Below, piece by piece: positions 27,001-33,000 of a stretch of 64,000 nucleotides of DNA. The position numbers and the translations under genes are program-made. The DNA comes from Cristatella mucedo (lineage: Eukaryota; Bryozoa; Phylactolaemata; Cristatellidae), in assembly GCA_009760855.2 (NCBI GenBank), contig WPIO01000002.1, positions 1,641,501 to 1,705,500 of the forward strand. Direction: 5' to 3'. Below the pieces are notes generated by a model. That model had not been told where the DNA came from. It ran no database searches and saw only the letters and a list, made by a program, of their open reading frames with translations. Position 1 is the stretch's first letter, and the number at the start of each line of letters is the position of its first letter.

Positions 27001-30000
27001 GGCAAGTTTAGTAGGTTCGAGTAGGTTCAAGTTTCGACCGTTTAAGCACCACATAGAATGATTCCCTCGTGTTTTTGTCATGCTTGTGATGTCGAGTAGG
27101 AAGGACTCTCGCTTCATTGGTCTCAGCGACCAACAAGGCTTTACCGATCGGGGGGGGGGGTGGGTGGTCTTACAGGACTGGGGTGGCGTGCTGAGCCTGA
27201 AGCAGTGAGCTTCAAATTTAATATAACACACAGCTTAATAAGTCCTCTTGTATAGCTCTTGTCTATAATATGCCGTTCATGCATTGCCATTTTTTTGTGC
27301 ACGGTGCAACGTCTGTGCTCACTTCTGCCTGCTTGGTAAACACCTGATGATTCTTTTGCAGAACTCGTCGCAAAATCCCCATTGCCATCTCATCGAAGGA
27401 GTTCTTGCAGCCTACCGCAATGCCGTCAATAGTGTGCAGCTTTATGGGCCAACAAACTTTGCGCCGGTGATAAACCACGTGGCTAGGCAAGTGAAATTTT
27501 CGCCTGCTGGAGTTTATCTGTGCTACAGCTTACCACCACCAGCTGCTTACTGGCTTTTGGCAAATGCCTTCCAAGGGTAACAATTTGCTGATTATACAGT
27601 GTTACAGGCAAATTTTAATTAAGTCAGACTTGTCTTCTCAATAATTCTCCAGCAAAACAAGCTGGTATTAGAAGCCATGACAATCATGGGTTGTACACCA
27701 AAGCAAAGCAAGTTTTTGCTTGTTGCACAGGTCTTCACCTAAAAAGAAAGTTTAGGCTAGCTCCTCACCATTTGAGATGTATAGTGCCACCGGTAGTGAT
27801 GTGCTTAGATTTTCCTATGTATGAGAGATTGGTAGATTGCTACAATACGACACTAGCTGACATGCTCAACGAGTTTGCACGTCTGACTAAGCGCACTTTG
27901 CACCCTCACCCAGACGGCCTACGGTTTACCACAGACATGAAGCCAGCTAGGTCTACTAAGCACAAGCTTGAAAAAACATTGTTAAACTAGTCTTTTGGAC
28001 CCTATACCCACTTTCCTGCTTCTACGATGCATTGATCTGCTGCAGCCATGCATAACTAACATCATAAACATGTTATTCGCCTCAGGTCATGTCCCAGCAC
28101 CTTTCAAAAAGGCTGTAGTCAGGCAAGAAAGCGACACCGGACCAAGAGAACTGGAGCAACTGCCACCCAGTCTCCCTTCTACCATTCCCATCAAAGACAC
28201 TGGAACGAGTCGTCGCAGACCAGCTGAACTCATATATTGAAACGTCAAACCTTGAGAGCTAATCACTCCACAGAGTCAGCACTGCTTCGGATATATTACG
28301 ACTTACTTAGGAATGCAGACTTAGATAGAGTATCTCTGCTTGTTTTGCTCGATCTTTGGGCATCACTAGCACTGCATTGCAATGGTTCAGGGCCTATTAC
28401 AGTGAGAGACTCCAGAGTGTTGATGTGAATGGACAAAGATCATCTGAGGAATCCCTGAAATATGAGGTACCTCAGAGCTCCGTGCTTGGTCCAGCTCTTT
28501 TCACGATTTATAGCCTCCCACTGGCCGATGTGATTGCCAAGTACAATCTAGGCTTTCACTTCTATGCGGATGACACTCAGTTGTACCTTTGCTTTGATCC
28601 CTCCCAGCCCTGCAGCACGTCGAATTTTCTCAACTCCCTTACTGCGTGTATGGATGACATCTACACATAGATGGCAGCAAATTTTCTGAAATTGAATTAT
28701 GATAAAACCAAATTACTAGTTATGAGCAAACCAAGTGTGATTCATAAATTGGAAAGGCTTACACTCAAAATTGGGCATATCTCCTGTTGAGTCTGCACGA
28801 AATCTTGGTGTCATGATCCAAAGTGACTTTTCATTGGACGACCACATCAGCTCCACAGTCAAGTCTGCCTACTTTCAGCTGCATAACATTGCTAAAATTC
28901 GGACTTGTTTAGACAGGGATACCACATCTAAGTTGGTCCATGCATTTGTAACATCCCGTCTTGACTTCTGTAACTCACTCCTTGCTGGGCTCCTGGCCTG
29001 TGCACTCTGGCGCATACAGCTTGTGCAAAACTCTGCAGCTAGGCTTGTCTGTCGTGAGCGTCACAGTTGCCACATCACATAACTTTTTGCCGACCTGCAC
29101 TGGCTACCAGTCGAGCAATACGTCGACTTCAAGGTTTGTTCCTTACTTTTAGGTCCCTTCATTCTTTGGCTCCAGCCTACCTATCAGATCTTCTCCACCA
29201 GGATTGTTCCACCCGCTTTTCGGAATCTAAGTGTTCAACTACACCTCGTACGAACCTCAAATCCTTTGGAGACCGTGCCTTTAGTTCGTATGGAATGTAA
29301 TGTAATGTATCTAAATCTGTAACTCCACAAAGTCATAAAGACTATGTAGGTGTTACGCAGGAGAGTTTTGTATAGTGCACTCACAGCATAAGCGGCTTTT
29401 GGTACGCATTCGGTAGCCAACAGACTTCATCTCACGAAACAAAGAGAAAGTGGAAGCATAGCAGAGTCAGGAGAGCAGTTGAGGTAGTGAGTAGCATGGA
29501 AGTAGCAGCTCAGGACCACTGATAAGGATGAGCCATAGTCGGCAGCAGGAGAGTAGTTGTTGCGAAAGAATTGTGGAAACGAGTTCCACAGTCTAGGACC
29601 TGCAGAGCTAAAGCTTCTATCGCCAACGGTCTTTAAACAAAGGAATGGAACGGCTAATTTATTGTCCATATAGGACCTGAGGGCTCGAAGAGGCTGAAAC
29701 AAGTGCAGCAGTTCAGCTAGGTACAAAGAAGCGAAGCCGTGGCAGGCCTTGTGGGTCAGCGTAAGAACTTTGCTCTGCTCCCAAAGCCTGGAACTCCCGA
29801 CTTGCGTCACGACCTCCTCTGACTTGACCAGATTTAAAAAGGAGCTAAAAACGCATCTATTTATGACAGCATTTTGTGCACTGGTTCTCAACCTTCCTAA
29901 TGCCACCACTCTTTAATACAGTTCCTCCAGTTGTGGCGACCCTAACCATAAAATTATTGTGTGCAAAATGTGGAAATGTGCATTCTCCGATGGCCTTCGG

Positions 30001-33000
30001 CGACCCTTGTGAAAGGGTCGTTCGACCCCTAAAGGGGTCGCAACCCACAGGTGGAGAACCACTGATTTAGTTTGTCCCTGTGATTCGTCCTTTATGTGCT
30101 TATGCGTGCTGACACGTGCATGCTGCCACTAACCACACTCGCATGCTGACCCTGTGTATGTCACCCCTAACCATGTTATTCTTGTTGTTTATTGAGCAAG
30201 CTACTGCTAACCATTCGATCATGTTTCCTTTGCTGCAATTGTGTAGCACATGGAAAGAGATTGAGTTCTCTGAAGGGGCTTTATAAAATGTATTATTTTT
30301 ATTATTATGTCAAGTGGCAGACGAAAGTGGATGACTGACTCCCACATGAGGGTCTTGCTCTACTGTATTTGTGAGCCCGTTATTTTATTGTATACATTCT
30401 CGCAAGAAAGCTGTCATTCACGACCATTCTTGTGATCCACTACCCCCTCGTGTAGGACCTGATTGGCATTGTGTAGCCACCGGTAAAAGCAAGTCTTCTC
30501 ACGATCCTGCTTTTGAAGGCGATCTCAGTGTCTGTTGGCACGTCCGTTGGCCCCTTTCTCACCCTACCCCCCCTCCGAGAGGCTGGCTTACAACGAATCG
30601 GAGCGACGAATCTGTGCACGTGCTGGAGCATGCCAATCAAGTGGAGCAGTATGTGCTGGCTGCAGTGCCTTGCTTGAGCTGTATTTCTGGGCGTGTGTGC
30701 GATTGCTTCTTCATGCACCTGTGATTGTTTCTGCGTATACCCGTGCTGGCATACAGGGGTACTTAGATGTTTGTTGACACCGCCAATGTTGATATTCACT
30801 TCAGTGTACTCTTAGTTTTTCTGAACTTTTGATGTGTAACTGGGTTTCTTTTGTAGGTGTGCACGGATGTCCCCAATTGGTACAGCATATTTTGTCCTGC
30901 TCATAGTAACAGATGGCGTGATCACAGACTTTGAGCAGACAAAAGAAGCCATCGTCTATGTCAGTGGAGCCAGCCTGTGCGACCCATCTCGAGGCTTCTG
31001 CAGGCCCAAAGCTTGTGCTTCAGCATTCTCATGCTTTTGTTCAGTCGGGGCTTATATATAATTTTTCTGACCGAAAGCTTGCTCCTTTGCAGCTTCAGGT
31101 TCAGACCGATGCAATGCACGATATTAGTGGGTCCTTAAGGCTCTTCGAGTTTGCTGTCTCGTTTATGCTGAGTTGGCACACGTTCCTTACGAGGTCTCTG
31201 CAATTCTTTTAGGCATCATCTTTGCCTCTGTCTATAATTATTATCGGTGTTGGGTCAGCTGATTTTAGTGGTAAGTACTTTTGTCGACTTTGTGTGTCTG
31301 CTAGCAGTTTGGTATCGGTGCACGGATGGCCTGAAGTATTTCTAGTGCAGATTAATTTATTGAAGTTATGCAATGTGACCTGCCAGAAATTCTTTTGCTC
31401 TGGGGCTTGTCTTTCGGTGAAACTAGGCATCAAGGAATTTTTTTGGGGCAGAACAGAAAAAAGCAAATTTTTGGAACTTCTACGAAGCATTTAGCTTTGT
31501 TTTGTTGGCTTGGGTCCCATTAAATAACCATTTAGCATCGGAGTACTTTCACGAAACAGTGCCTTATTTCAGTTTTGCTGGAATCCAGTAGTTACCCTAA
31601 CAGCGAAGGTTCATCGGTTAACTGAATACAGTAGTGGGCAGTCAGGGGATATGTTTTACTCGGGTATCTCATTGATATTCAAGGTTTTACGATGGTTCCA
31701 TCATGCCACTATATTTCATATTAGGCATTTTTATGGAAACGCTTGGCCGATTAGATTAGATGTGGATTACGGGTATATTGTGTTCGTACTTGTAGTGCAG
31801 AAATGCCTAAAACTAGATGCTTTACTCAGAAAAACTCAGTAATTCATGGATATTTTCCTCTGTTAGGAATTTGTGTTGTCAAATTCTACGAATGTCTTCA
31901 ATGAACGGTATCGGTTTTTTCACAGCAACTGTCCTTCATAAGCCTTGTGTGAATTCACACGTGTTCTTCTTTTCGTGCACTTAGTAAATCATTAACATGC
32001 AAGCTATCACCTCGGGCCGGTCCATGAGCATATATATTTGATTGGTTGATCTAAAGTTCAAGAATCAATCATGCATGGCAATATGAACAAACGGTACATC
32101 AAATATGGCAGCTTTGAATGGCGTGCCCAGCACACATAACAAATATATCCATTAAGTCGAAAAATTCAAGATCTTGCTCATTTTAGAATGAACAATCATG
32201 ATATGCCAAGGTGCAAACTGATGGCTTTGAACTTGTGAGAGGCTAACACAGAGTTGGTAGACTTGTGTTTTCTCATCTCTACTGTGAGCATTTTTATAAT
32301 TGAAAATGTCTCACTTACTGACGGTTGACTTCTTTGAAGTAGGAACTGGTCATCTAAAAGCTATTCTTAAGAATAGTTATTCGAAAAAAGACCTTAGAAA
32401 CCTGGTCAACCAATCCTTTCACCTTTAATTTCTGGTTGCCTGCTTTTTTCTTAAAGAGTCTGAGCTTCTTGGCATGTGGATGTGATATTCACTATGCCCT
32501 CGTTGTCTGTAAGGATTTTGAAAATACAAAATGACCAAACTTCTGCTGTGGGACTGCATGCAGAAGTCTTTTTGCCACGAGCGAAGAATGATCACTTAAC
32601 TTATGGTTTTTTGAGACAGTGCCCTACCGATTGAGCTGTTGAGACTACCATGCTATTGCACTCAACACAATACTAGAAAGAGATTAAGTTCTCTGAGGAT
32701 GCTATACTAATGTATTTTTATTGTTGCTTAAAGCCCTTTGGTTTCAGTGTCTACTCTCGTGCTCGAGCCGTATATCGGTGCCTGAATGCATCTGCATGTT
32801 TTTGATGGCGTTTGGATTCCGAACTGCATTAAGAAGACAGTTTCTGTTCTCATGGGAAAACAATAATTTAATGTGGGCAGTATAGTACGTTGTGCATCCT
32901 GGCTCTGTCATGGCTAAAGTTCATTAATTCAACGTATGGGACGATGTATTGTGGAAAATCAGAAAGCTGAAAGTCATCGTAATTTGCTGGCAAAGTGCAT

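Follow-up and report, generated by a model that had tools for sequence, protein, structure and literature searches.

SPIN (SPACE INVADERS) elements, members of the hAT superfamily, are a standard case of DNA transfer between animal phyla. Among invertebrates, SPIN is reported from Rhodnius prolixus, where its silencing by piRNAs has been described (PMC11614815), and the snail Biomphalaria glabrata is said to carry ~1,000 copies of a hAT element significantly identical to SPIN (PMC5440852). The target signature of Buster-group hAT elements is given as nnnTAnnn (PMC3517528), and Buster ends are reported to be alike over ~106 bp across families (PMC4298943). Here we describe a 186-bp element in a stretch of 64,000 nucleotides (the window, meaning the whole stretch: positions 1641501-1705500 of contig C222, 15.8 Mb long, in a 572-Mb assembly of 688 contigs). 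An initial annotation had proposed a SPIN-like hAT miniature inverted-repeat transposable element (MITE) with an intact 8-bp target duplication inside a long interspersed nuclear element (LINE). We read it as a dead SPIN-lineage MITE, belonging to the Buster group within the hAT superfamily, whose family would have entered horizontally, spread through deletion derivatives mobilised in trans and then died out, and we put the probability of this reading at about 0.88.

Results

A 186-bp element interrupts the 3' end of a LINE

The element occupies 186 bp at 29879-30064 of the window, and its ends, CACTGGTTCTCAACCT and AGGTGGAGAACCACTG, are complementary when inverted at 14 of 16 nucleotides (88%). 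As proposed, it lies within a LINE, the LINE-A of the initial annotation, of which further copies occur in the window near 2241, 5763, 15120, 36976, 51331 and 61302. The parts of the locus are listed below; the MITE was assigned to the minus strand because the transposase pieces in long relics of its family read on the opposite strand.

29776..30305, plus strand: 3' end of the LINE (LINE-A), interrupted by the MITE
29871..29878, plus strand: 8-bp target duplication, left copy, ATTTTGTG, differing from ATTTAGTG at one base
29879..30064, minus strand: non-autonomous SPIN-type hAT element (MITE), 186 bp
29879..29894, plus strand: left terminal inverted repeat (TIR), family form CAGTGGTTCTCAACCT
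29879..29958, no strand: left terminal block, common to the 326-bp and longer forms
29959..29971, no strand: short middle stretch, the deletion junction, where the 326-bp form has ~150 bases (alignment, counted by hand)
29972..30064, no strand: right terminal block with GGGTCG/CGACCC repeats, common to the 326-bp form
30049..30064, minus strand: right TIR, family form read inward CAGCGGTTCTCAACCT
30065..30072, plus strand: 8-bp target duplication, right copy, ATTTAGTT, differing from ATTTAGTG at one base

The internal GGGTCG blocks that had been noted are present, the family consensus holding two on one strand and five on the other. When the flanks were joined and compared with the remaining window sequence and with the genome loci retrieved, 24 LINE copies proved to cross the junction without the element. 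The empty site reads ATTTAGTG in 16 of these, and the other eight differ by at least one base, one of them reading ATTTTGTG like the left flank. Because 16 of the 24 copies agree, the insertion point is certain, and the earlier claim of a known empty site stands. The target duplication itself is not intact, contrary to that annotation, since its two copies agree at only 6 of 8 positions; most simply, each has undergone one change since insertion. Were the 186 bp a chance palindrome of the LINE, with no insertion having occurred, neither the 24 copies that pass through the site without it nor the more than 1,000 core matches elsewhere in the genome would be expected, and we consider that account extremely improbable.

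A second SPIN-type MITE, at 1389-1894 of locus L007, has entered another LINE copy at the identical point but oppositely oriented, and its duplication is perfect (ATTTAGAG in the LINE orientation). The two insertions are independent and show this position of the LINE to be a suitable target for the enzyme. At another locus, L047, two SPIN-type MITEs lie ~90 bp apart in opposite orientations.

The family is repeated across the genome and targets TA-centred sites

Genome-wide, a 22-mer from the core of the element has 562 + 570 = 1,132 matches at up to two mismatches, these being core matches rather than complete elements, and its reversed control has 0 + 0. In a search with the window element, 40 of 2,137 candidates were scored and 41 matches listed. 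We sampled 48 copies, namely the eight best matches to the window copy (itself included) and 40 loci with an exact core. Both ends could be called in 40; in the remainder (L078, L081, L082, L087, L091, L098, L104 and L105) an end was absent, altered or more distant.

The TIRs of the family are 16 bp long, start with CAG and have the consensus forms CAGTGGTTCTCAACCT and CAGCGGTTCTCAACCT; short TIRs of this sort are a hAT trait. So is an 8-bp target duplication, which is perfect in 8 of the 40 short copies, agrees at 7 of 8 positions in 10, and ranges from 6 of 8 down to 0 in 22. Agreement at 7 of 8 or better is thus seen in 18 copies, against a chance expectation of ~0.015. The 36 flanks of these 18 have T at position 4 in every case and A at position 5 in 34, which is the nnnTAnnn pattern of the Buster group.

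The copies are decayed. Short copies diverge from their consensus by a mean Kimura two-parameter (K2P) distance of 0.092, or 0.094 (median 0.080) once CpG positions and the core used for selection are excluded, and the window copy by 0.105. As the sample is skewed towards well-preserved cores, the real mean is probably higher.

Longer forms share the same ends

Two of the core matches, L087 and L104, carry internal sequence different from that of the short form. Searching with it, we scored 40 of 86 candidates, listed 40 matches and fetched 16. Six of these copies are 290-332 bp long, four are similar with one end uncalled, three measure 419-498 bp, and three had no right end as fetched. Extension of the last three yielded one copy of 3,110 bp with both family ends and a perfect 8/8 duplication, ATTTAGAT, and another of 2,956 bp with both ends and a duplication of just 2/8; the right end of the third was not found on extension. 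In blocks, these three long copies are 77-87% alike.

A 326-bp consensus was built from six copies (L111, L112, L116, L118, L119 and L125). Alignment shows the 186-bp form to be an internally deleted version of it, with 13 bases in place of ~150 (counted by hand). Eleven of the longer copies have both ends, and in seven the duplication agrees at 7 of 8 positions or better, the lower values being those of L111, L112, L119 and the 2,956-bp copy. With the exception of L125, these seven have TA at the centre of the duplication on one side or both.

Long copies hold broken transposase relics

No transposase was recognised in the long copies on the strand equivalent to the window's plus strand. On the opposite strand, they contain broken pieces resembling hAT transposase. 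An intact hAT protein of the same genome, L109, matches the relics of two of the three long copies (E = 2e-12 and 1e-8), and the third long copy matches the transposase piece of the first (E = 1.4e-24). The transposase of an autonomous hAT parent was therefore found, as broken frames, in two of the three long copies.

A genome search with one 192-aa piece returned 13 matches. Six fall at the three long copies' own loci, two lie on contigs C658 and C332 at 80% and 62% identity, and five are weak (27-38%). Within this single-query search, which was not exhaustive, we found no intact SPIN-type transposase, and the SPIN-type matches besides the query carry stops or are a short fragment. TIRs, nnnTAnnn duplications, the internal-deletion series and transposase relics together bear out the reading of the window element as a hAT MITE of the Buster group.

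Other hAT elements are present in the genome:

L109, 535-2223: Buster-like hAT element with end CAGGGGTGTCCAACCT, open frame of 563 aa
L110, 817-2307: Buster-like hAT element with end CAGGGGTGTCCAACCT, open frame of 497 aa

These two encode a transposase related to the SPIN-type relic, with a hAT C-terminal domain in L109, but differ from it in their end, in identity (25-28%) and in their long open frames. The L109 protein scores 22.7 bits against PF05699 (cut-off 21.4) and 26.6 bits against PF14291, under the cut-off of 32.1; compared with PDB it gave no match. From its TIR we take it to be Buster-type, carrying DUF4371 and a hAT domain.

A young Hermes-like hAT family is indicated by 55 of 138 PF05699 matches that share one score, many with open frames of ~640 aa (30 loci, L009-L038, fetched). 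The relic pieces match L109 but not the Hermes-like L014 protein of this family, which has no significant match to them, and we therefore set the family aside as a mobilising source. At the 30 of 138 PF05699 loci and 20 of 46 PF14291 loci examined, no credible SPIN end was seen within ~1.5 kb at up to three mismatches; one three-mismatch match, in L023, was taken as chance.

Mouse sequence resembles the family ends

Likeness to SPIN was assessed through mouse sequence printed as primers in three papers and through a putative rodent SPIN sequence. The mouse primer Ate1 R1 (PMC2767504) differs from the family consensus at 2 of 20 positions, one of them outside the element. It was found by a search with end k-mers, and 15 of its 16/16 matches to the TIR are the search term itself. 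Its partner Ate1 R2 (PMC2767504), whose sequence played no part in its selection, agrees with the consensus at 18 of 20 bases, at positions 113-132 inside the element; both primers match one and the same strand, no more than 75 bp from one end. For a third primer, Kcnq1ot1 R, the agreement is 19 of 20 bases at positions 109-128, of which 14 were the search term. Twelve further primers printed alongside these have 5 to 11 mismatches, and with a base-shuffled consensus the best of 8,000 comparisons had three mismatches, once. We conclude that this non-coding end is very probably present in the mouse genome as well, Ate1 R2 being the single unselected item. A further mouse sequence, in PMC11247941, contains GTGGTTCTCAACCTGCC.

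Mouse carries SPIN. The putative rodent SPIN sequence aligns at 97.5-100% over the family ends and, counting gaps, at 90% over the 326-bp form, whose internal part it presumably also matches; the 13-base middle of the 186-bp form is absent from it. Together with the mouse primers, this suggests that the window element may be SPIN itself. Elsewhere, exact-pattern searches of public viral and genome contigs returned 0 independent SPIN copies, a distant blastn search of phages and plasmids found no match to the SPIN-type element, and no sequence in open-licence papers matched its internal part or its left end.

The same comparison bears on whether this could be a native, vertically inherited Buster-group family near SPIN, its rodent likeness being due to terminal sites that are conserved for transposase binding. 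The reported resemblance of Buster ends across families would fit such an origin, as would the presence of L109 and L110, Buster-like elements with different ends, in this genome. Yet the TIRs of L109 and of Buster1 and Buster2, the latter two as printed (PMC4298943), match those of the family at only 12 of 16 positions; Ate1 R1 matches all 16, though 15 of them through the search term, and the matches of Ate1 R2 and Kcnq1ot1 R lie inside the element. To these we add the presumed internal match of the putative rodent sequence. We regard native descent as unlikely.

The host appears to be a protostome

Cox1 on the 21-kb mitochondrial contig, C688, reads with genetic code 5, placing TGA, AGR, ATA and AAA at expected Trp, Ser, Met and Lys, where the conserved residues are assumed rather than taken from an alignment. 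This code argues against a vertebrate host. The gene block nad1-nad6-cob-nad4L-nad4-nad5 of the contig looks lophotrochozoan, and in combination with trnP and trnT, both of which are predicted to lie on the opposite strand, it is reminiscent of nemerteans. PF14830, the haemocyanin domain of mollusc type, had no match in this genome, which says little because the controls lacked a match too.

Similar sequence in mouse would fit contamination by vertebrate DNA. Copies are nevertheless spread over many contigs, that of the window lying in a 15.8-Mb one; their flanks differ, each has mutations and duplications of its own, and two of the MITEs sit in LINE copies of the same genome; contamination is accordingly a negligible prospect.

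Two further observations concern the assembly. The mitochondrial contig (L045, L046 and L108) has a tandem duplication of 2.1 kb extending over the 3' end of nad3, together with an apparent inverted copy of part of it, and nad2 and cox2 lie on the opposite strand from cox1. In the window, 43987-45885 (minus strand) is an open frame of 632 aa that resembles a retroelement Gag by eye, overlapped by a frame with DTGA as in aspartic proteases.

Discussion

We propose the following history. An autonomous element of ~3.1 kb would have reached the invertebrate lineage of this host horizontally. Judging from structure, transposase from long copies would have bound the shared ends, excised elements and pasted them at TA-centred 8-bp targets, and internally deleted derivatives of ~326 and 186 bp, needing only those ends, may have been mobilised in trans. 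One 186-bp derivative inserted into a LINE copy at ATTTAGTG. The family appears to have died, the transposase copies found being broken and its elements and duplications decaying.

Vertical descent hardly accounts for likeness of non-coding sequence between a rodent and a protostome, which makes horizontal entry the best reading; if the SPIN label is right, horizontal transfer would be the best explanation for these ends, and the genome is best read as having joined the SPIN transfer wave, as the initial annotation had suggested. An element identity far above that expected from host divergence would follow from the mouse primer match if, as code 5 suggests, the host is a protostome.

Several results weigh against our reading of a dead SPIN-lineage MITE. 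L109 finds no significant match in the third long copy, four transposase pieces scanned in Pfam gave no hAT match, and one piece compared with PDB matched nothing. Three of the four mouse primers were retrieved by family k-mers and are thus largely selected, which leaves the SPIN label that builds on them provisional; one of these three, Il1b 601F, has 3 mismatches in 20 and agrees over its 16 search bases and only one of the four others.

An additional invertebrate host that preserves relics of full-length elements would supply a datable point in the transfer network, and a single genome here displays the series from parent to MITE. SPIN may even have reached a phylum from which it is not known to have been reported, perhaps Nemertea or some other lophotrochozoan phylum outside the molluscs, with ~3.1-kb parents, at least two generations of deletion derivatives and extinction of the transposase; we offer this tentatively, at somewhat less than even odds. 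Should SPIN prove new to the host's phylum, the routes between host and parasite that have been put forward for blood-feeding bugs and snails would have to be widened. Titles and abstract openings of open-licence literature brought no further invertebrate SPIN host to notice, a scope that cannot show the case to be unpublished.

Among known systems, SPIN may have ends and non-coding terminal blocks like those of this family, a comparison that runs through mouse primers. It differs in host, and the 186-bp deletion form belongs to the present genome. Buster1 and Buster2 are, as here, Buster-group hAT elements with MITE derivatives and reported horizontal transfer, and Buster1 has a GGGTCGCG-type subterminal motif in common with this family (PMC4298943). 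The Mar MITEs of Drosophila are also short internal-deletion Buster MITEs with nnnTAnnn duplications and relic parents, but have their own TIR, CAG(G/A)GGTAGGC, unlike that of this family (PMC3517528). Since SPIN or SPIN-like elements are already in print for Rhodnius and Biomphalaria, the kind of element is known, and it is the host and the relic series that this locus adds.

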